35,779 bases of DNA. Origin: Planctomycetota bacterium. Lineage in GTDB: Bacteria; Planctomycetota; Planctomycetia; Gemmatales; Gemmataceae. The position numbers and the translations under genes were made by a program. Shown here piece by piece: positions 8,467 through 35,329 of this stretch; positions within the stretch are counted from its first letter, which is position 1, and the number at the start of each line of letters is the position of its first letter. The stretch lies in contig JAIOPV010000052.1 in assembly GCA_021413735.1 (NCBI GenBank), positions 1 to 35,779 on the forward strand, read 5' to 3'. Below the pieces are notes generated by a model. That model searched no databases, was not told the DNA's origin, and saw only the letters and a list, made by a program, of their open reading frames with translations.

Positions 8467-10023
8467 ATGTTCGACATCCTCATCCGCAATGGTCGCGTCG
8501 TCGATGGCTCCGGGTTGCCGTGGTTCCATGCCGACGTTGGCATCACCGGCGACCGCATCACCGCTGTCGGGCGGCTTGGCAAAGCAGCCGCGAAGCAAAC
8601 CCTCGACGCGGCGGGCAAGATCGTGTGTCCGGGGTTCGTCGATGCTCACGTTCACGGCGACTTGCCATTGCTCGCGGACCCGCTGCACGAGGCGGGTGTG
8701 CGGCAAGGCGTCACCACGCACGTCATCGGTCAGGATGGGGTCGCGTTCGCGCCGGGGTCGCCGGAAACGCAAGCGTACATGCGGCTGTACACCGCAGGCT
8801 TCAACGGGAATCTGCCGACGCCCGGTAAGCAGTGGCGAACTATCACCGAGTTCCTCGCGGCATACGATGGCCATTCGTCGATCAACGCCTGCACGCTGGT
8901 TCCCAACGGCAACGTGCGGATGGAAGTGGTCGGCCTCGATCCACGGAAGCCCACGGCTGACGAACTGAAGCGAATGCGGGCCATCGTTCGCGAAGGCATG
9001 GAGCAGGGAGCGGTTGGGCTGTCGAGCGGGCTGGATTACGTTCCGAGCATCTATTCCGATGAGGATGAACTGACGGAGTTGTGCGAGGAGATTGCACCGT
9101 TCGGCGGAATCTACGTCACGCACATGCGAGGCTACAACGAGCAGAAGGCACCGCCCGCGTTGCAAGAAGTGTTCAACATTGGGAAGCGTGCGAACTGCGG
9201 CGTCCACGTTTCGCACTTCAACTGCATCGCCGACCAAACCATTCCGCTGCTCGACGCGGCCCGGAACGACGGCGTGGATGTCACGTTCGACCTGTACTGC
9301 TACCTCTACGGCAGCACCATTGTTGCGATGCTGACGTTGCCGCCCGAGATTCTCGAAGGGGGCATCGCGGCGACCGTGGAGCGTCTGAAGAATCCGGCCG
9401 TGCGGAAGCAACTCGAAGCGGCGTTCGCGAACCCACGCTTCCCCATCGAAACCATCCGGCTCGCGAACATTCCGCACGATCAACTACGGCATCTGGAGGG
9501 AATGTTGCTCCCGGCAGCAGCAGCGGCGGCGAAGCAATCGCTCGTCGATTTCACCTGCGATCTGCTCATCGCGACGAACCTCGCAGCGGGTTGTGTCATT
9601 CGGCACTTCGCGGCCCGACAAGATTCCGACATTCCGAAGCTGATGAAGCACCCGCTGATGATGGCGGGCAGTGACGGCATCTACGTTGGCGGGCGGCCAC
9701 ATCCGCGAGGTACCGGTTGCTTCGCGAGGTATCTGGGCCACTACGTCCGCAACGGAACGTGGTCACTTGAAGAAGCTGTGATGAAGTGTGCGTATCACAC
9801 AGCGAGACGATTCGGATTGAAGGATCGCGGCTTGATTCGCGCTGGCATGGCCGCCGATGTGGTTGTGTTCGATGACGCGACCATCGCGGATCGTTCGACC
9901 TACGACGACGGCAAGGCGTTAGCGGTGGGCGTCGAGCATGTGCTGGTGAATGGCGTGCCGGTGCTGCTGAATGGTGACCGCACGACAGCACGCCCCGGAC
10001 GCGGGTTGAAAAGGCAGGACTAA
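8467..10023 (+). CDS. N-acyl-D-amino-acid deacylase-type amidohydrolase
   Basis: This 518-aa protein belongs to the D-aminoacylase branch of the metal-dependent amidohydrolases, which remove acyl groups from N-acyl-D-amino acids. Visible features are the N-terminal beta-sandwich strand DILIRNGRVVDGSG and the first metal site PGFVDAHVHGD with HxH. Further on are GLSSGLDYVP, the THMRGYNE and VSHFNC strands with metal-binding His, and the Asp of MAGSDGIYVG followed by HPRGTGCFARYLG. The C-terminal sandwich (ADVVVFD, VNGVPVL) completes the fold. The length matches the family. Members also include related hydantoin- or dipeptide-hydrolysing enzymes, so the exact substrate is open. The TAA stop is part of the inverted repeat 10016-10127. 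Confidence 0.93.
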   Translation: MFDILIRNGRVVDGSGLPWFHADVGITGDRITAVGRLGKAAAKQTLDAAGKIVCPGFVDAHVHGDLPLLADPLHEAGVRQGVTTHVIGQDGVAFAPGSPETQAYMRLYTAGFNGNLPTPGKQWRTITEFLAAYDGHSSINACTLVPNGNVRMEVVGLDPRKPTADELKRMRAIVREGMEQGAVGLSSGLDYVPSIYSDEDELTELCEEIAPFGGIYVTHMRGYNEQKAPPALQEVFNIGKRANCGVHVSHFNCIADQTIPLLDAARNDGVDVTFDLYCYLYGSTIVAMLTLPPEILEGGIAATVERLKNPAVRKQLEAAFANPRFPIETIRLANIPHDQLRHLEGMLLPAAAAAAKQSLVDFTCDLLIATNLAAGCVIRHFAARQDSDIPKLMKHPLMMAGSDGIYVGGRPHPRGTGCFARYLGHYVRNGTWSLEEAVMKCAYHTARRFGLKDRGLIRAGMAADVVVFDDATIADRSTYDDGKALAVGVEHVLVNGVPVLLNGDRTTARPGRGLKRQD

Positions 10024-10127
10024 CCACAGAGGCACAGAGACACAGAGAAAACCGAAGAGAGATCATTCTTCAAAGAACGGTCGTCCTCTTGTTTTCTCTG
10101 TGTCTCTGTGCCTCTGTGGTTAGTCCT
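10016..10127. repeat. Foldback element with perfect 37-bp arms
   Basis: Arms 10016-10052 and 10091-10127 are exact reverse complements and contain CCACAGAGGCACAGAGACAC; the loop is 38 bases. The element lies between two convergent genes and overlaps both ends: TAA at 10021-10023 ends the amidohydrolase, and TAA on the other strand at 10120-10122 ends the small basic protein. A fold of this strength should also act as a bidirectional terminator. Confidence 0.9.
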
Positions 10128-10361: not shown

Positions 10362-11540
10362 ATGGCACGAATACTCATCGCCACTGATGCATGGCACCCG
10401 CAAGTTAGCGGCGTCGTTCGCACACTTGACACCACCAGTCGCGTTCTCCGCGAATGGGGCCACACTGTTGAGGTTGTCGAGCCGACTGCGTATCCATCGG
10501 TGCCCACGCCATTTTACCCCGAAATCCCGATCTGTTATCCACGATCAGGACGGGTCCACGCACGAGTGCTGAACTTCCGCCCAGATCACGTCCACATCTC
10601 CACAGAGGGGGCGCTCGGGTTTTTGGTTCGCCAATTATGTCAGCGAATGCGCTGGAGCTTCACGACGTCGTATCACACGCGGTTCCCAGAATACCTCAAG
10701 CGGCTCGCGTATGTGCCGGAAGGCGTCTCGTATCGCTTCCTCAAGTGGTTCCACGGCGGTTCGGGCACAATGATGGTGGCGACGCCCAGTTTGGAGAAGG
10801 AGCTGGTGAGTCGCGGGTTCCGACCACCCATTCGGCGATGGTCGCGTGGCGTGGATATGGGCATCTTCCGACCGCGTGAGAAGGCGGACCTGCAGAACCC
10901 CTCCGACCCTCTTGCTCCCCCTTCCTTCTTAGGGAAGGGGGTTGGGGGGTTAGGTTCTTCCGAAGACCCCTCCCCAACCCCTCCCCCAAGGGGAGAGGGG
11001 CTTAAAACAGGGAAGGGGGGTGGGGGGTCAAGTTCTTACCCCCGACCTGTGCTGCTCTACGTCGGCCGTGTGTCGCACGAGAAGGGCATTGATGATTTCC
11101 TCAAGCTGAAAACGCCTGGCACGAAGCTGGTGGTGGGTGATGGCCCCGCGAGAGCGAGCCTTGAGAAGCAATACCCCGACGCGGTGTTCCTCGGCTATCG
11201 CAAGGGGCAGGCGCTCGGCGAAGTGTATGCGTCGGCGGATCTGTTCGTGTTCCCGAGCAAGACCGACACGTTTGGCGTCGTCGTGATTGAAGCGCTGGCG
11301 TCGGGGTTGCCCGTGGCCGCGTATCCCGTGACTGGTCCGGGCGACATCATCACGAGCGAGAAGTTCGGCGCTCTCGACAACGATCTCGGCAAAGCTGTCG
11401 AGCGAGCGCTGGCGACAAGCAACCCCACGGCATGTGCAGCCGAGGGAGCAAGCTACACCTGGGAGAACTGCACACGGCAATTCTTGGCCAATTTGGTCCC
11501 GATTCGTGGCGAACCAACACGACGTCAATCGCGTCCGTGA
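10362..11540 (+). CDS. Glycosyltransferase family 4 (GT-B fold)
   Basis: This 392-aa enzyme has a GT-B N-terminal domain (MARILIATDAWHPQVSGVVR, HISTEGALG, SFTTSYHTRFPEY). The C-terminal nucleotide-sugar domain starts at VLLYVGRVSHEKGIDDF near 230, and KTDTFGVVVIEALASGLPV at 300-318 is the usual E-x7-E donor-binding region. The sequence is most like GDP-mannose-dependent alpha-mannosyltransferases and digalactosyl/sulfoquinovosyl-lipid synthases (MgtA/SqdX/MshA-like). A lipid or cell-envelope acceptor is therefore plausible. Residues 178-225, in the linker between the domains, come from an inserted repeat (see 10893-11036). There is no clear ribosome-binding site. Confidence 0.93.
   Translation: MARILIATDAWHPQVSGVVRTLDTTSRVLREWGHTVEVVEPTAYPSVPTPFYPEIPICYPRSGRVHARVLNFRPDHVHISTEGALGFLVRQLCQRMRWSFTTSYHTRFPEYLKRLAYVPEGVSYRFLKWFHGGSGTMMVATPSLEKELVSRGFRPPIRRWSRGVDMGIFRPREKADLQNPSDPLAPPSFLGKGVGGLGSSEDPSPTPPPRGEGLKTGKGGGGSSSYPRPVLLYVGRVSHEKGIDDFLKLKTPGTKLVVGDGPARASLEKQYPDAVFLGYRKGQALGEVYASADLFVFPSKTDTFGVVVIEALASGLPVAAYPVTGPGDIITSEKFGALDNDLGKAVERALATSNPTACAAEGASYTWENCTRQFLANLVPIRGEPTRRQSRP
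10893..11036. repeat. Palindromic repeat inserted in frame in the glycosyltransferase
   Basis: These 144 bases (48 codons) consist of CCCCCTTCCTTCTTAGGGAA with its mirrored GGGGGTTGGGG part, and CCCCTCCCCCAAGGGGAGAG. Both parts recur in the intergenic element at 22211-22302. The translation (PPSFLGKGVGGLGSSEDPSP, TPPPRGEGLKTGKGGGG) is low-complexity and unrelated to the enzyme. It separates FRPREKADL from YPRPVLLYVGR, which would read naturally if joined. Confidence 0.85.
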
Positions 11541-12202: not shown

Positions 12203-12227
12203 AATCCGACGCCCCGCGCAACACGAC

Positions 12228-12338
12228 CCCAGGCCAACGGCCTGGGCTGAGGAAGATCGGTCCTTCAGACCTCAAAAACCAAGCATGTCTTTGCGGTCTG
12301 AAGGACCGCCCTCCCTCAGCCCAGGCCAACGGCCTGGG
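12228..12338. repeat. Palindromic repeat with 44-bp arms
   Basis: Arms 12228-12271 and 12295-12338 are near-perfect reverse complements. Each arm contains the smaller palindrome CCCAGGCCaacGGCCTGGG and the unit GGTCCTTCAGACC. The frame of the downstream YkgJ-like gene happens to stay open through it, which would wrongly extend that protein by about 60 residues if the first ATG were used. Confidence 0.85.
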
Positions 12339-12387
12339 TTCATTTTTCTTTGTGGCTACAATCCTCCGTATCGCCCTGGAGGTCATT

Positions 12388-18304: not shown

Positions 18305-18378
18305 TTGCGAGCCACGGGGTTTACCCCCGTGGTCTTCTTACCTCCAAAGACCACGGGGATAAACCCCGTGGCTCGCAA
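18305..18378. repeat. Palindromic repeat with 30-bp arms upstream of pyrB
   Basis: Arms 18305-18334 and 18349-18378 pair with a single mismatch, each containing GAGCCACGGGGTTTA. Each arm is itself partly palindromic (CCACGGGG...CCCCGTGG). It lies between the acetyltransferase stop and the pyrB start, 34 bases before the latter, and so would be in the pyrB leader if transcribed from further upstream. Confidence 0.85.
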
Positions 18379-22210: not shown

Positions 22211-22302
22211 TGAACCCCTCCCCCAAGGGGAGAGGGGCTCAAGCCTGCCGGCTTCCGGCTCCCCCTTCCTTCCCAGGGAAGGGGGTTGGGGGTTAGGTTC
22301 TT
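22211..22302. repeat. Palindromic repeat, intergenic copy of the glycosyltransferase insert family
   Basis: It contains CCCCTCCCCCAAGGGGAGAG and CCCCCTTCCTTCCCAGGGAA followed by GGGGGTTGGGGGTTAGGTTC. The same two modules occur in the opposite order in the in-frame insert at 10893-11036. It lies between the WD40 gene start (22195) and the truD stop (22307). Confidence 0.85.
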
Positions 22303-22306
22303 CAGA

Positions 22307-23380
22307 CTACACATCGCCTTCCTCGTCATCGTCCGGCGCAGCGGCTTCGTCATCAACGTCAGTCTTCATCACTTCGCGAAGCAAGACGGTTGCGTAAGAG
22401 CCGGCAGGCAACGTGAACGACAATCGAAAGCCGTCCGGTTCCCACGCGGCAGCGAGATCGTCGAGATACACGAGGTTGTGTCGGCGTGTGCCGAGAACGA
22501 GCTTGCCGAACCCGCCGAACGACGCCGGTGACAGCTTGTTGTCACTCAGTACAGCAGCCTCGCGTTCCGCTGCGACAGCTTCAGCCGGGAACGTCTTTTT
22601 GCCGAACATCGGACCGGCCGTGACGATCTCTCTCGCATCGAATCGAGGCTGTTCAGCCGCGACGTCCTTCGTCACGAACATGCCGCCTGCGGGCCACTTC
22701 GTCATGACGTCGCCGAGGAGCACCGTCCGGAACAAACCGTCTCGCAATCGCCTTGCGAGGTAGTCGTTGAACAGCAGCGATTGCACAGCCGACAGCGCGA
22801 AGCGAAACAGGAACGGCCGGATGCGCCGCGGCGCCTTCCCTGCGAGGCACTGCATTCCGAGATCGACCGTGCTGCCATCGCGACCGAATCGCTGCGGACC
22901 GTAGAAGTTCGGCATACCCTGCGTGCGAATGCGTTCGAGAATCGCGTCCGGGTTCACGCTGCGGTCGGCGTCGCGGATCAGAATGCGAAACCGATTCCCC
23001 TTGAGGTGCCCGGGCTTGAGCTTATTCGTGTGAAAGCCCGACTTCAGAACGCGAATGCCGTCGCCGTCGAGCTTCGAGACGTTCGGGGCACATTCCTTCG
23101 GCACGGATACCCATTGCCGCGTCACGGCGTGTCGATCCTTCAGCCCGGCGGTGCCGACCGCTCCGGGCGAGATCTGGAACTTCTGGGCGATGGTGCGTGC
23201 GAAGAACTCCGGAGCGATGCCGCGTTTCTCGACCCAAAGATAGAGATGATCGCCGCTGCCGCTGGGTTCGTAGGAGGGAACTTCTTCGACCTCGAAGTCT
23301 TCATCGCGCACGCGGATGCGCCCGCCGATACCAGCCAACTCGGGGGTGAACAGCGGGGGCGTCATCGCAGCATGATTCAT
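22307..23380 (-). CDS. truD: tRNA pseudouridine(13) synthase TruD
   Basis: The 357-aa enzyme makes pseudouridine 13 in tRNA. The catalytic Asp82 lies in GLKDRHAVTRQWVSV. Other TruD marks are FEVEEVPSYEPSGSGDHLYL, the GNRFRILIRD strand and NFYGPQRFGRDGS, and the TRUD insertion region follows. The C-terminus ends in an acidic tail (DDEAAAPDDDEEGDV). The start at ATG 23380 has no strong ribosome-binding site; ATG 23365 is an alternative. It is divergent from the toxin-antitoxin operon, whose operator lies 56 bases away. Confidence 0.94.
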   Translation of the reverse strand: MNHAAMTPPLFTPELAGIGGRIRVRDEDFEVEEVPSYEPSGSGDHLYLWVEKRGIAPEFFARTIAQKFQISPGAVGTAGLKDRHAVTRQWVSVPKECAPNVSKLDGDGIRVLKSGFHTNKLKPGHLKGNRFRILIRDADRSVNPDAILERIRTQGMPNFYGPQRFGRDGSTVDLGMQCLAGKAPRRIRPFLFRFALSAVQSLLFNDYLARRLRDGLFRTVLLGDVMTKWPAGGMFVTKDVAAEQPRFDAREIVTAGPMFGKKTFPAEAVAAEREAAVLSDNKLSPASFGGFGKLVLGTRRHNLVYLDDLAAAWEPDGFRLSFTLPAGSYATVLLREVMKTDVDDEAAAPDDDEEGDV

Positions 23381-27128: not shown

Positions 27129-27160
27129 CAGCGAAACTCCAGAGGAGCTGACGAAGAGTA

Positions 27161-27422
27161 GCCACGGATGAACACGGATGAAACATGGATCGGACCAAGA
27201 CAAATTAGCCGCACGATCAAAGTCGATAAGACACGATTCAGACAAAAAACCGAGAGAATCCAGTGTGAGAAAGAGAGAACCCCAAAACGCAATCCGCGCA
27301 GGGCTTAAACACAACAGACCTCTGTATTCTGTTTTGATCGTGTCTTTATCAGGTTTCGATCGTGCGGCTAAATTCTCTTCTGCCTTTGTCTGATCCGTGT
27401 TTCATCTGTATTCATCCGTGGC
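27161..27422. repeat. Foldback element with about 90-bp imperfect arms
   Basis: The left arm begins GCCACGGATGAACACGGATG and contains TTAGCCGCACGATCAAA and GACACGAT. The right arm, read on the other strand, begins GCCACGGATGAATACAGATG and contains TTAGCCGCACGATCGAAA and GACACGATCAAAA. Arms are roughly 27161-27252 and 27332-27422 with several mismatches and small gaps. The gene-free stretch 27129-27546 consists mostly of this element; the remaining 120 bases before the kinase show no clear promoter. Confidence 0.8.
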
Positions 27423-27546
27423 CGCACTTCTCTGTCTTCTCGCTCTTTTTACGAATTACCGGGTTCTATCGGGGGTGGGTGTCATGGTAAACTTGGTCAC
27501 CGGTCGCTCTTGCGGCTAATCTCACATCCTCGCGTTCGCCGAAGTG

Positions 27547-32998: not shown

Positions 32999-33170
32999 CG
33001 GACGCACCCCCGTGGCGGCGTGTACAATCGACTGTGATTACAACACACGAACCCCGAACGTGTTTACGAAAATGACCACCGCCGGAATACCGACCAGAAA
33101 TCGGAGGCGAGGTGGGTTGGCTAATTTTTGAAGGCAATTGGTTGGTTTGAGCCGAAAGAGGAGACGCTGC

Positions 33171-33327
33171 GCACCCACCTCTCTCCCGTTTTAGGGGGAG
33201 AGGTCGCTCCGAGTCTTCGAGGAGCGGGTGAGGGGGCTTTGCCTTCAAGATGTCCAGGTAACTCCCCCTCACCCGGCTCGCAAAGCCTCGCCGACCTCTC
33301 CCCCTAAAACGGGGGCGAGGTGGGTGC
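33171..33327. repeat. Foldback element with 66-bp arms next to a DUF559 gene
   Basis: Arms 33171-33236 and 33262-33327 are close reverse complements. Both contain GCACCCACCTC, CCGTTTTAGGGGGAGAGGTC and, at the inner ends, GGGTGAGGGGG; only the hairpin tip of each arm differs. The direct repeats TGAAGGCAATTGG (33129-33141) and TGAAGGCAACTGG (33341-33353) lie outside it on both sides, each next to GGTTGGTTTGA. It fills most of the gene-free stretch 33008-33303. Confidence 0.85.
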
Positions 33328-33777
33328 GGTTGGTTTGATTTGAAGGCAACTGGATTCGGTTACCTGGGGGTTTCGCTTTGATGAGTGCGGCATCAAGCCG
33401 TGGGGTCCAGTTCCTCCAAAGTCCTTTCCGTTGCAGACACAGTTCTGCAATCCGGTCAAGTATACCGTCTGGGTTTCTTTAACCTCGAAGTTCCAGAACC
33501 GAATGATCATCAGCCCCAGTGATTCCAAATAGCAATGCCGGACGCGGTCGTGCTCAATCCCTTCCTCAGTCGTGTGGGTGTCTCCATCGAGTTCGATAAC
33601 AAGTGAGGCAGAAGCAATGTAGAAGTCTGCGATGTAACGCCCGATGGGATGCTGCCTACGAGACTTCAGGTTCGCAAGTCGGTAGTTGCGAAGTAAACGC
33701 CAAAGAACTTCCTCAGCCGGCGTTGGCTCGTGCCGCATCTGCCGTGCGAATTCGATCAACCGCGGATCAGTAGCCAT
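33304..33777 (-). CDS. DUF559 endonuclease-like protein (Vsr/restriction-type fold)
   Basis: This 157-aa protein belongs to the DUF559 group related to very-short-patch-repair endonucleases. RQMRHEPTPAEEVLWRLLRN opens the domain, then KSRRQHPIGRYIADFYIASA with Asp51. VIELDGDTHTTEEGIEHDRV follows with Glu62 and Asp64 as likely metal ligands, then LESLGLMIIRFWNFEV. The catalytic residues expected of the PD-(D/E)XK fold are thus present. From about residue 115 onward the sequence loses the family pattern. The last 11 residues (QIKPTAPTSPPF region) and the TAG stop are encoded by the right arm and flank of the foldback element 33171-33327. Confidence 0.85.
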   Translation of the reverse strand: MATDPRLIEFARQMRHEPTPAEEVLWRLLRNYRLANLKSRRQHPIGRYIADFYIASASLVIELDGDTHTTEEGIEHDRVRHCYLESLGLMIIRFWNFEVKETQTVYLTGLQNCVCNGKDFGGTGPHGLMPHSSKRNPQVTESSCLQIKPTAPTSPPF

Positions 33778-33838
33778 AGGTGATCCTCATGCGCCGTCAT
33801 ACCGTCACAATTTCTGCCACCGAGCATACACTAATTCC

Positions 33839-35329
33839 ATGAACACCACACTCACTCCGACCGCTCCGGCTCCCGCCACGAATACGCTGACGCAAGCCAC
33901 GCTCATCACGCGAATGAAGGCCATCGTCGGCAACGATAACGTCCTCACGTCGGCTGCCGACATGGCTGCTTACGAGTGCGATGGTTTCACCATCGCCAAG
34001 ACGAAGCCGAGCGTCGTCGTGTTCCCGACAAGCACCGAACACATCGTCGAGATCGTGAAGACGTGCAAGGAACTCGACATCGGGTTCCTCGCTCGCGGGG
34101 CCGGCACGAGCTTGGCCGGCGGTTGCGTGCTTGTTGGTGGCGGCGTCATGATCGCGCTCGCTCGCATGAAACGCATCCTCGAAATCAACGTGCGTGACCG
34201 CTACGCCATCGTGGAACCCGGCGTCGTGAACGTGTGGCTCACGAACGCACTGAAACCGTTCGGCTACCACTACGCCCCGGACCCCAGCAGCCAGGGTGCT
34301 TGTACGATCGGTGGGAACGTCGCCACGAACTCGGGCGGACCGCACACGCTGAAGTACGGCGTCACGGTGAACCACATCCTCGGCATCGAATTAGTGCTGC
34401 CGGATGGTCGCGTCGTGACATGCGGCGGTCCCACTGCCGACGGTGCGGGCTTCGATCTGACGGGTGCTGTGGTCGGCAGTGAAGGCACGTTCGGCGTGGT
34501 GTCGAAGGTCTGGGTGCGGCTCACGAAGAACCCCGAAGCATACCGCACGCTACTCGGCGTGTTCGAGACCATCGACGACGCGACGAACACCATCAGCGAT
34601 ATCATCGGGGCCGGAATCGTTCCCGCAGCGCTCGAACTCCTCGACAAGACCATGCTCAGTGCCGTGGAAGCCGCGTTCAAGTTCGGCTTCCCGCTGGATG
34701 CGGAAGCGGTCGTGATTATGGAAGTGGACGGCCTCACGGCAGGCTTGCAGGAAGAAGCCGACCGCATCGAGGCGATTGCCAAGAAGAACAAGGCTCGCGA
34801 GGTTCGCAAAGCGAACACGGAAGCCGAGCGAATGGCGTTGTGGAAGGCCCGCAAGCAAGCGTTCGGCACGATTGGTCGGCTGGGCTATCCGAGTTACTGC
34901 ACGCAGGATGGCGTGGTTCCGCGCACGAAGCTTCCGGAGATCATGCGGCACATTCAGGCGACCGCGAAGAAGTACAATCTGGGCATTTGCAACGTGTTCC
35001 ACGCGGGTGATGGCAACGTTCACCCGATCCTGATGTTCGACGAACGCTACCCGGAGCAGGTGAAGAAGGTGCTCGACGCGAGCCACGAAATCCTGGCGGA
35101 GTGTATTCGGCTGGGCGGCAGCGTGACGGGCGAGCACGGCATCGGCGTTGAGAAGATCGACTTCATGCCGTTGATGTTCACCCCGGACGATTTGAACTTC
35201 ATGGTGCGGTTGCGAACGGCGTTCAACCCAGACAATCGTTGCAGTCCAGGGAAACTGCTGCCGACCGCCGGCGGTTGCACCGAGCCGAGTGCGGTTGCGA
35301 CGAAGCCCGGACGCCGCGCCGCGGTGTAA
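33839..35329 (+). CDS. glcD: Glycolate oxidase subunit GlcD / FAD-linked oxidase
   Basis: The 496-aa flavoprotein has a PCMH-type FAD-binding domain (PSVVVFPTSTEHIVEIVKTC, ARGAGTSLAGGCV, DPSSQGACTIGGNVATNSGG, VVGSEGTFGVVSKVWVRL). The FAD-oxidase C-terminal domain contains VFHAGDGNVHPILMFDE and GSVTGEHGIGVEKIDFM with the conserved His residues. It oxidises a 2-hydroxy acid such as glycolate or D-lactate and passes electrons to the respiratory chain. The partner subunits GlcE and GlcF are not in the window. The start MNTTLTPTAP at 33839 is preferred to the longer frame, which runs back through the DUF559 gene. D-lactate dehydrogenase is the main alternative. Confidence 0.92.
   Translation: MNTTLTPTAPAPATNTLTQATLITRMKAIVGNDNVLTSAADMAAYECDGFTIAKTKPSVVVFPTSTEHIVEIVKTCKELDIGFLARGAGTSLAGGCVLVGGGVMIALARMKRILEINVRDRYAIVEPGVVNVWLTNALKPFGYHYAPDPSSQGACTIGGNVATNSGGPHTLKYGVTVNHILGIELVLPDGRVVTCGGPTADGAGFDLTGAVVGSEGTFGVVSKVWVRLTKNPEAYRTLLGVFETIDDATNTISDIIGAGIVPAALELLDKTMLSAVEAAFKFGFPLDAEAVVIMEVDGLTAGLQEEADRIEAIAKKNKAREVRKANTEAERMALWKARKQAFGTIGRLGYPSYCTQDGVVPRTKLPEIMRHIQATAKKYNLGICNVFHAGDGNVHPILMFDERYPEQVKKVLDASHEILAECIRLGGSVTGEHGIGVEKIDFMPLMFTPDDLNFMVRLRTAFNPDNRCSPGKLLPTAGGCTEPSAVATKPGRRAAV

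Follow-up and report, generated by a model that had tools for sequence, protein, structure and literature searches.

The C/T-rich triplex motif that was named BoxC, later PIT, and later TM(ECO) was noted in the 1990s without a reported mobilizer (PMC4666352). There are 23 copies in Escherichia coli MG1655, five inverted A/B pairs are recognized, and the motif occurs in more than 260 genomes; in vitro data on an intrastrand triplex exist for the E. coli motif, and earlier work saw neither promoter nor terminator activity in the elements (all according to PMC4666352). In the available sections of that paper, the genes next to the repeats are not reported to share a functional class or to include a mobility gene, and neither an endonuclease nor a DUF is mentioned (PMC4666352). 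In sum, BoxC/PIT/TM(ECO) has so far been described as a repeat only. A second system, the REPtron with its REPINs, consists of one gene framed by palindromic repeats, with many short inverted pairs elsewhere; the gene encodes an HUH Y1 transposase (RAYT, or TnpA-REP), and REPINs are thought to be moved in trans. Here, we describe solo DUF559 genes from many bacterial phyla that are framed by repeats of the BoxC type, and our comparisons suggest that DUF559 spreads the BoxC/PIT repeat. Among open-licence papers on DUF559 or ycjD, none had a title or an abstract opening on palindromic repeats, although this does not prove novelty.

The window, by which we mean the whole stretch of DNA analyzed, is contig JAIOPV010000052.1 of a Planctomycetota bacterium of the Gemmataceae (GCA_021413735.1; 35,779 nt; our labels are C45 for the contig and G000 for the genome). 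On its minus strand, at 33304..33777, lies a gene for a DUF559 (YcjD/Vsr-fold, PD-(D/E)XK) nuclease of 157 amino acids. The PF04480 profile matched this open reading frame at 33463-33756 with 102 bits, against a curated cutoff of 20.6, which places the protein in DUF559. Residues E22, W26, R41, Q42, D51, E62, D64, and H68 are all present, and these, together with G65, D77, and R93, are invariant in 32 aligned DUF559 sequences, the window's among them. The predicted structure has a mean pLDDT of 81 and is mostly confident at residues 1-120. In structure comparisons, the model matched 3hrl, a solved DUF559 structure from Neisseria gonorrhoeae, with Z 14.4 (sequence score, 121.6 bits), and the homing endonuclease I-Bth0305I (PDB 3r3p) with Z 11.8 and an rmsd of 2.6 over 95 residues (27.7 bits). 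Its matches to Vsr, the very short patch repair endonuclease, had Z 10.7 and 10.2 (1cw0 and 1vsr). YcjD had been assigned to the PD-(D/E)XK superfamily earlier (PMC1189080, as far as its available text goes). I-Bth0305I, an EDxHD/Vsr-type homing endonuclease, thus shares with DUF559 the fold, a detectable sequence kinship, and the character of a mobile-element nuclease; however, it is the protein of a mobile intron, going by its PDB molecule name, whereas solo DUF559 genes sit between palindromic repeats. Vsr, which works with a cytosine-5 methyltransferase on T:G mismatches and was compared by fold alone, differs from DUF559 in that DUF559 genes have a framing of repeats.

The original prediction treated the gene as fused to a single foldback element with 66-bp arms and short direct repeats outside them. 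The TAG stop (33304-33306) does lie inside the right arm. A fusion with a function is a candidate that we rejected: the C-terminal tail is read-through of the repeat, residues 122-146 have a pLDDT below 50 in the predicted structure and are thus predicted to be disordered, and the tail is absent from the closest relative found (69% identity over 117 residues), in which the stop precedes its repeat. The arms themselves are real, at 33170-33206 and 33292-33328, with 37 nt that are 95% complementary. Over the full 159 nt, identity between the sequence and its reverse complement is 77%, and so the arm length first given was generous. Near-identical direct repeats also exist (33127-33141 and 33339-33353; 15 nt, 14 of 15 identical). 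However, a TTTGAAGGCAAyTGG-like stretch lies within the spacer in several of 14 genomic copies, and the repeats are therefore internal spacer sequence, so we rejected the reading of the 13-base repeats as target-site duplications.

Reading those 14 genomic places gave the plan of a complete short element of about 190 bp: CCCCCTCACCC, a small hairpin, ACCTCTCCCCC..GGGGGCGAGGT, a spacer of about 70 nt, an inverted hairpin, a small hairpin, and GGGTGAGGGGG. Set against this plan, the supposed foldback resolves into parts of two copies: a short, truncated copy contributes its right end, and after 27 nt of gap another copy begins with its left end. The first of these is an adjacent short (nonautonomous) element on the plus strand at 33098..33236 with a truncated left end; it is made up of a left-end remnant (33098-33117), a spacer (33127-33141), an R/Y hairpin (33176-33205), a small hairpin (33206-33225), and a terminal GGGTGAGGGGG (33226-33236). 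The gap at 33237..33263 had been taken for the foldback loop. The left end of the DUF559 unit follows on the plus strand at 33264..33353, at the 3' side of the gene, and holds the last codons and the stop; its parts are a terminal CCCCCTCACCC (33264-33274), a small hairpin (33275-33287), an R/Y hairpin with an imperfect stem (33293-33324), and a subterminal spacer (33328-33353). A right end would be expected 5' of the gene (33778..33841), but neither inspection by eye nor the hairpin finders found one there. The window element carries both GGGTGAGGGGG and CCCCCTCACCC, has an extra small hairpin between the main hairpin and the tail, and is mismatched in its main stem. The window copy is a decayed unit, with one end seen and imperfect stems. 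In its own 9.8-Mb genome, the element had at least 96 BLAST matches, a count that includes the self-match and the inverted self-match and is a lower bound, since 40 of 141 candidates were scored. The R/Y hairpin pattern had 182 matches in this genome and its reversed form had 0.

We compared the surroundings of DUF559 genes in three sets of loci collected by protein similarity only: 31 planctomycete loci (two from the window's own genome), 80 loci from many phyla, and 20 from the window's genome and its relatives. Three loci are common to sets (L036 = L065, L037 = L069, and L002 = L146, the window). The set of 80 holds the best matches among the matches listed, and 12 were dropped for short flanks, which left 68. 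A hairpin was counted if it had a perfect stem of at least 7, one all-pyrimidine arm, at least 5 G/C, and a loop of 2-16; this rule was written after inspecting the tails of DUF559 loci and was then applied unaltered to the controls. Among the 68 genes remaining from the best 80 among the matches listed, 64 had a hairpin within 250 nt and 47 had one on both sides, compared with 29 and 4, respectively, of 537 control open reading frames in the same loci at least 1.5 kb away (Fisher p 3e-58). Around the genes of this set, again the best 80 among the matches listed, hairpin density fell from 3.99 per kb in the nearest 250 nt to 0.25 over the following 250 nt and to 0.073 at distances above 1.5 kb. 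Six of these best 80 loci among the matches listed had no hairpin (L077, L086, L096, L110, L121, and L134), two of them with short flanks. Hairpins were found at 24 of the 31 planctomycete loci (both sides, 20), with 7 failing the strict rule, and at 15 of the 20 loci of the genus set (both sides, 7), with 5 failing. The window copy is among the failures on both flanks (L002 and L146, the same locus) because of the mismatches in its stems.

Other gene families gave a different picture. With 30 loci apiece among the matches listed, a hairpin was present at 2 of 30 GIY-YIG loci, compared with 38 of 40 DUF559 loci in the same genomes; at 1 of 30 loci of Y1_Tnp, the RAYT-type family, from DUF559 genomes and the window's genome; and, for the DUF559-type hairpin, at 0 of 30 planctomycete loci of PDDEXK_3. 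Across 109 DUF559 loci, the heptamers GGAGAGG, CTCTCCC, GGGTGAG, and CCCTCAC were enriched 22-31 times within 250 nt. In a set of 17 hand-picked diverse loci, from which L197 was omitted as a near copy of L196, 13 satisfied the strict rule, 6 of them on both sides; of the four misses, L145, L200, and L248 have imperfect or A/T-containing hairpins by eye and L252 has none. The N. gonorrhoeae gene has repeats on both sides, one by the strict rule and the other by eye. The original prediction proposed to ask whether palindromic repeats occur within about 200 bases of DUF559 genes more frequently than of other genes, and the counts support this strongly. As far as genome comparison goes, DUF559 genes are associated with these hairpins, in inverted geometry, and specifically so relative to four control groups.

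The same best 80 loci among the matches listed have 155 hairpins within 250 nt of the DUF559 gene, and 130 of these carry, within 32 nt, a tail that agrees with GGGTGAGGG/CCCTCACCC at 7 or more of 9 positions. The GGGTGAGGG-like tail points toward the gene in 52 of 73 upstream hairpins (far side, 6) and in 51 of 82 downstream hairpins (far side, 15); the remaining hairpins are 6 in other classes and 25 without a clear tail. In these best 80 loci among the matches listed, hairpin centers are often 35-60 nt from the DUF559 domain. Since the tails point inward on both flanks, a DUF559 gene typically lies between inverted copies. In the Synechocystis (cyanobacterial) and Deinococcus units the tails point, by eye, outward rather than inward, and thus the ends vary between units. 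Some DUF559 genes of the window's genus have complete short elements next to them and do not lie between two single ends. In two loci, L149 and L150 (genomes G248 and G251), the gene apparently lies, by eye, between the same two neighbor genes; upstream of it there is a full short element in one and a short inverted repeat with CCCTCACCC / GGGTGAGGGG ends in the other, also by eye. REPtron systems have a GTAG tag at the hairpin foot; we saw no conserved GTAG there in the 150 hairpins inspected of the 155 (best 80 loci among the matches listed; by eye and uncounted).

Many DUF559 reading frames extend into peptides such as SPSPLMGEGWGGGG before the domain and HPPLTPPIKGGE after it, and these are read-through of CCCTCTCCC..GGGAGAG-GGGTGAGGG repeats. 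Tails such as SPSPLMGEGWGGGG in DUF559 frames are accordingly repeat read-through, not protein.

At the DUF559 loci, a hairpin with one pyrimidine and one purine arm precedes a GGGTGAGGG-like third strand, which is the plan of BoxC/PIT/TM. The likeness extends to the Y arm, the R arm, the GGGTGAGGG third strand, the inverted pairs, and one E. coli copy beside ycjD; the difference is the DUF559 partner. In E. coli K-12, ycjD is annotated as DUF559, BoxC/TM copy 9 in the table of PMC4666352 (1351239-1351204) begins 167 nt past its stop, and the last ycjD codons continue into a degenerate BoxC copy. The 23 BoxC copies make up 18 sites, which can have no more than 36 flanking genes; the E. coli record has 4,760 annotated features, so less than 1% of genes are BoxC neighbors. 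In E. coli, ycjD adjoins fabI. A partial duplicate of the ycjD 3' end lies between its stop and the intact BoxC copy (L145).

We consider it probable, at roughly 0.7, that solo DUF559 is the resident nuclease of the BoxC/PIT/TM repeats, that repeat, gene, and inverted repeat together make a mobile unit, and that short pairs are its nonautonomous forms; cleavage and transposition are what we infer. The autonomous unit would be [repeat - DUF559 gene - inverted repeat], of roughly 0.5 kb, and the abundant short pairs, about 110-190 bp in length and made of two inverted repeats around 20-70 nt of spacer, would be internally deleted forms moved in trans. The Vsr-fold nuclease may recognize the folded C/T-G/A hairpin together with its GGGTGAGGG tail and may nick or cut the folded repeat, perhaps when it is single-stranded at replication. 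Host repair would then copy the unit and the short pairs to new places, in a system of REP-like architecture and homing-like chemistry. Strand joining is not a known activity of the Vsr fold, and insertion would therefore probably be repair dependent and homing-like. With a gene partner beside the repeats in most loci examined, ycjD in E. coli K-12, the identity and movement of the repeat become a bench question in a laboratory strain. If our reading holds, DUF559, a widespread domain of unknown function, would gain a role, and REP-like elements would have a second, non-HUH route.

The original prediction also proposed to check whether genomes that lack DUF559 lack the repeats. We searched 246 planctomycete genomes with the pattern CCTCYCCCN{2,10}GGGRGAGG and called solo DUF559 matches strong at E < 1e-20. 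Of the 35 genomes that have a strong solo DUF559, 24 contained at least 5 pattern copies; of the other 211, 24 did so (odds ratio, 17, with p 3e-12, neither corrected for phylogeny). Four of the 35 genomes have DUF559 and 0 pattern matches (G017, G032, G195, and G239), and pattern matches without a strong DUF559 were found in G004, G145 (which also has 37 reversed-pattern matches), G205, and others. Repeat number thus rises with DUF559 presence, and the 24 of 211 are exceptions to a strict absence of repeats from genomes without a strong solo DUF559. These genomes fit a reading that we consider unlikely, namely, that other machinery spreads the repeats and DUF559 is a passenger between copies or in repeat-rich accessory regions. 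Genome G255, with 100 type 2 copies (see below) and no match to the window protein, fits it also, as do the DUF559 genes in the window's genus that merely adjoin complete short elements. However, other small accessory nucleases lack a framing by these hairpins, which were present at 2 of 30 GIY-YIG loci in the same genomes and 0 of 30 PDDEXK_3 loci in the same phylum.

The passenger reading also has to face the tendency of repeat type to track DUF559 subfamily. In the 19 genomes of the window's genus, the DUF559 domains split into two groups with a support of 0.997; L152 and L156, from genomes outside the genus, group with the window's side. Of the 7 genomes that have subfamily I, 5 contained at least 20 copies of type 1 repeats (ACCTCKCCCC..), compared with 0 of the 12 that do not (p 0.002). 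Type 2 repeats (CCCCYYCCCT..) reached this number in 10 of the 11 genomes that have subfamily II and in 3 of the 8 that do not, which is weak at p 0.04. These counts use exact patterns, and 22 genomes outside it had no type 1 and one type 2 match. Subfamilies in the genus were assigned by searching with the window protein, not with the profile, so DUF559 absences there are soft. The window itself holds a type 2-like repeat pair of the same C-rich/G-rich hairpin plan at 10915..11053 and a second copy at 22213..22318. In G259, 48 of 228 hairpins were listed, and among these 17 of 20 hairpin distances below 400 nt were 87-92 nt, in line with a unit whose length is fixed. With background composition removed, protein distance and flanking-repeat distance gave a partial Mantel correlation of 0.235 (0 of 2000 permutations; 111 usable of 128 loci). 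This correlation between DUF559 and its flanking repeats is modest, and from these comparisons repeat type tends to follow DUF559 subfamily.

The other machinery could be a RAYT. Y1_Tnp matches were absent from 14 of 39 DUF559 genomes, which counts against a passenger reading and indicates that RAYT is not the common mover; with a hairpin near 1 of 30 Y1_Tnp loci besides, we rejected RAYT as the mover. Genomes without Y1_Tnp had 96 (G301), 37 (G316), and 34 (G285) repeat-core matches at up to 2 mismatches, a tolerance at which the reversed pattern is almost the same motif and its counts are often close to the real ones, so that those control counts say little. The window's genome has 11 Y1_Tnp matches, with 0 on the window's contig. 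The DUF559 units resemble the REPtron in that palindromic repeats frame one gene and numerous short inverted pairs lie elsewhere in the genome. In both, the type of repeat tends to go with the subfamily of the enzyme, and a mover is proposed for an otherwise orphan repeat. A gene framed by inverted palindromes, with short pairs elsewhere, was found for the loci as a set and on one side only for the window copy. However, the resident enzyme is a Vsr-fold PD-(D/E)XK nuclease instead of an HUH Y1 transposase, and the DUF559 repeats are C/T-G/A hairpins of the triplex type. Because no HUH enzyme is resident, we do not place these units in the RAYT class; the mechanistic resemblance stands.

In Synechocystis sp. 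B12, two DUF559 units lie inside genes, a DUF1156 gene and a pglX-like gene. The DUF1156 gene is uninterrupted in Nostoc, Planktothrix, and Geminocystis plasmids, and the B12 unit lies at a linker of variable sequence. Both interrupted genes carry further frame breaks, and so the host genes may have been dead before insertion. The Pseudanabaena pglX orthologue is one open frame with a short in-frame repeat pair at the site of the Synechocystis DUF559 unit, and the Planktothrix and Oscillatoria orthologues have neither unit nor pair at that site. Pseudanabaena pglX has a second in-frame repeat pair where Synechocystis has a short plain stretch. These alignments place DUF559 units inside genes that relatives carry without interruption, and at one site a short pair in one genome corresponds to a DUF559 unit in another. 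The Pseudanabaena galeata gene is on a plasmid (L207); it is a methyltransferase gene that stays open despite the in-frame insertion of the two short repeat pairs, a situation that recalls the palindromic elements of Rickettsia.

In the hpa operon on Deinococcus plasmids (L246 and L250), a DUF559 cassette is at two different places in two species. In one, it lies between hpaB and an oxidoreductase gene, and the oxidoreductase gene and hpaE overlap by 4 bases; in the other, it lies between the oxidoreductase gene and hpaE, and a VOC gene separates hpaB from the oxidoreductase gene. At the cysP-yfeX site, Klebsiella pneumoniae has a DUF559 unit and K. aerogenes only a repeat remnant, with flanks that are 93-95% identical. 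Because the remnant is still there, we rejected K. aerogenes as the empty site for the K. pneumoniae unit; gain and loss are indistinguishable here. Neither a target duplication nor a nucleotide-exact empty site was found among the loci compared. Both the inverted framing and the DUF559 units within genes agree with the proposal that nuclease and repeats may move as one unit.

DUF559 could instead have a host function. It would then be a repair or tolerance nuclease (VSP-like or structure specific), the flanking repeats would be its own regulatory or binding sites, and the copies across the genome would be substrates or decoys, not offspring. We judge this improbable. It is in keeping with the Vsr fold (Z 10.7) and with ycjD, which is present in 3365 of 5426 E. 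coli genomes at a median of one place, like a kept gene. In addition, VsrA of Caulobacter, which belongs to DUF559, has been connected with a solitary cytosine methyltransferase, and its induction accompanies the DNA damage response (PMC12907096, in its available sections), a connection that makes a repair role for DUF559 a live alternative. Set against a host role are the inverted repeats on both sides, often 35-60 nt off, in many phyla (best 80 loci among the matches listed), the DUF559 units within unrelated genes, and the cassette at different places in one operon. At ycjD itself, one E. coli strain without the gene had other genes at that place, with which PMC12817139 agrees in the portion available. 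We therefore rejected this locus as an empty site, since without ycjD it is occupied by other genes and offers no clean site. That the C/T-rich hairpins are ordinary terminators or chance products of composition, hairpins being common near gene 3' ends, is very improbable and was rejected, because hairpins lie upstream too, only 29 of 537 other open reading frames have one, the window's genome has 182 forward and 0 reversed matches, and BoxC/PIT elements had shown neither promoter nor terminator activity in earlier work, according to the available part of PMC4666352.

Movement of the repeats by their resident nuclease, our preferred reading of DUF559, may have a parallel in PDDEXK_3/GxxExxY (PF13366), a small PD-(D/E)XK family with 8 matches in the window's genome. 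GxxExxY genes were expected to lie near CACAGAG repeats. The CACAGAG core was found within 250 nt on at least one side of 11 of 30 planctomycete PDDEXK_3 loci, compared with 0 of 54 background windows (500 nt each, 900-1400 nt away); a different pattern, an ACAGAG-type motif, was found at 9 of 30, so most PDDEXK_3 loci are without the motif. By 8-mer counts, the repeats are mostly inverted across the two flanks, with CCACAGAG 10 times upstream and 3 times downstream and CTCTGTGG 0 times upstream and 9 times downstream. As with DUF559, a small PD-(D/E)XK gene has one family of repeats clustered around it, but both the repeat family and the nuclease family are different: the CACAGAG core was present at 2 of 31 DUF559 loci in the same phylum, and DUF559-type hairpins were at 0 of 30 PDDEXK_3 loci. 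The two families thus dissociate in both directions, which supports a link specific to DUF559 and hints that the principle may be general. Tentatively, and at somewhat less than even odds, small PD-(D/E)XK nucleases could be a new class of repeat spreaders apart from the HUH transposases, with DUF559 moving BoxC/PIT and PDDEXK_3/GxxExxY moving CACAGAG. If so, the two nuclease families would explain a large share of orphan palindromic repeats, from E. coli BoxC to planctomycetes and cyanobacteria.

The window holds further repeats. A foldback at 10016-10127 is made of the CACAGAG repeat. Another, at 27153-27430, has CCACGGATGAACACGGATGAA arms, and related GATGAACAC / CACGAATTA-type repeats were seen at 5 of 30 PDDEXK_3 loci. 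Other inverted-repeat pairs lie at 12220-12346 (CCCAGGCCAACGGCCTGGG) and at 18305-18378 (CCACGGGG..CCCCGTGG).
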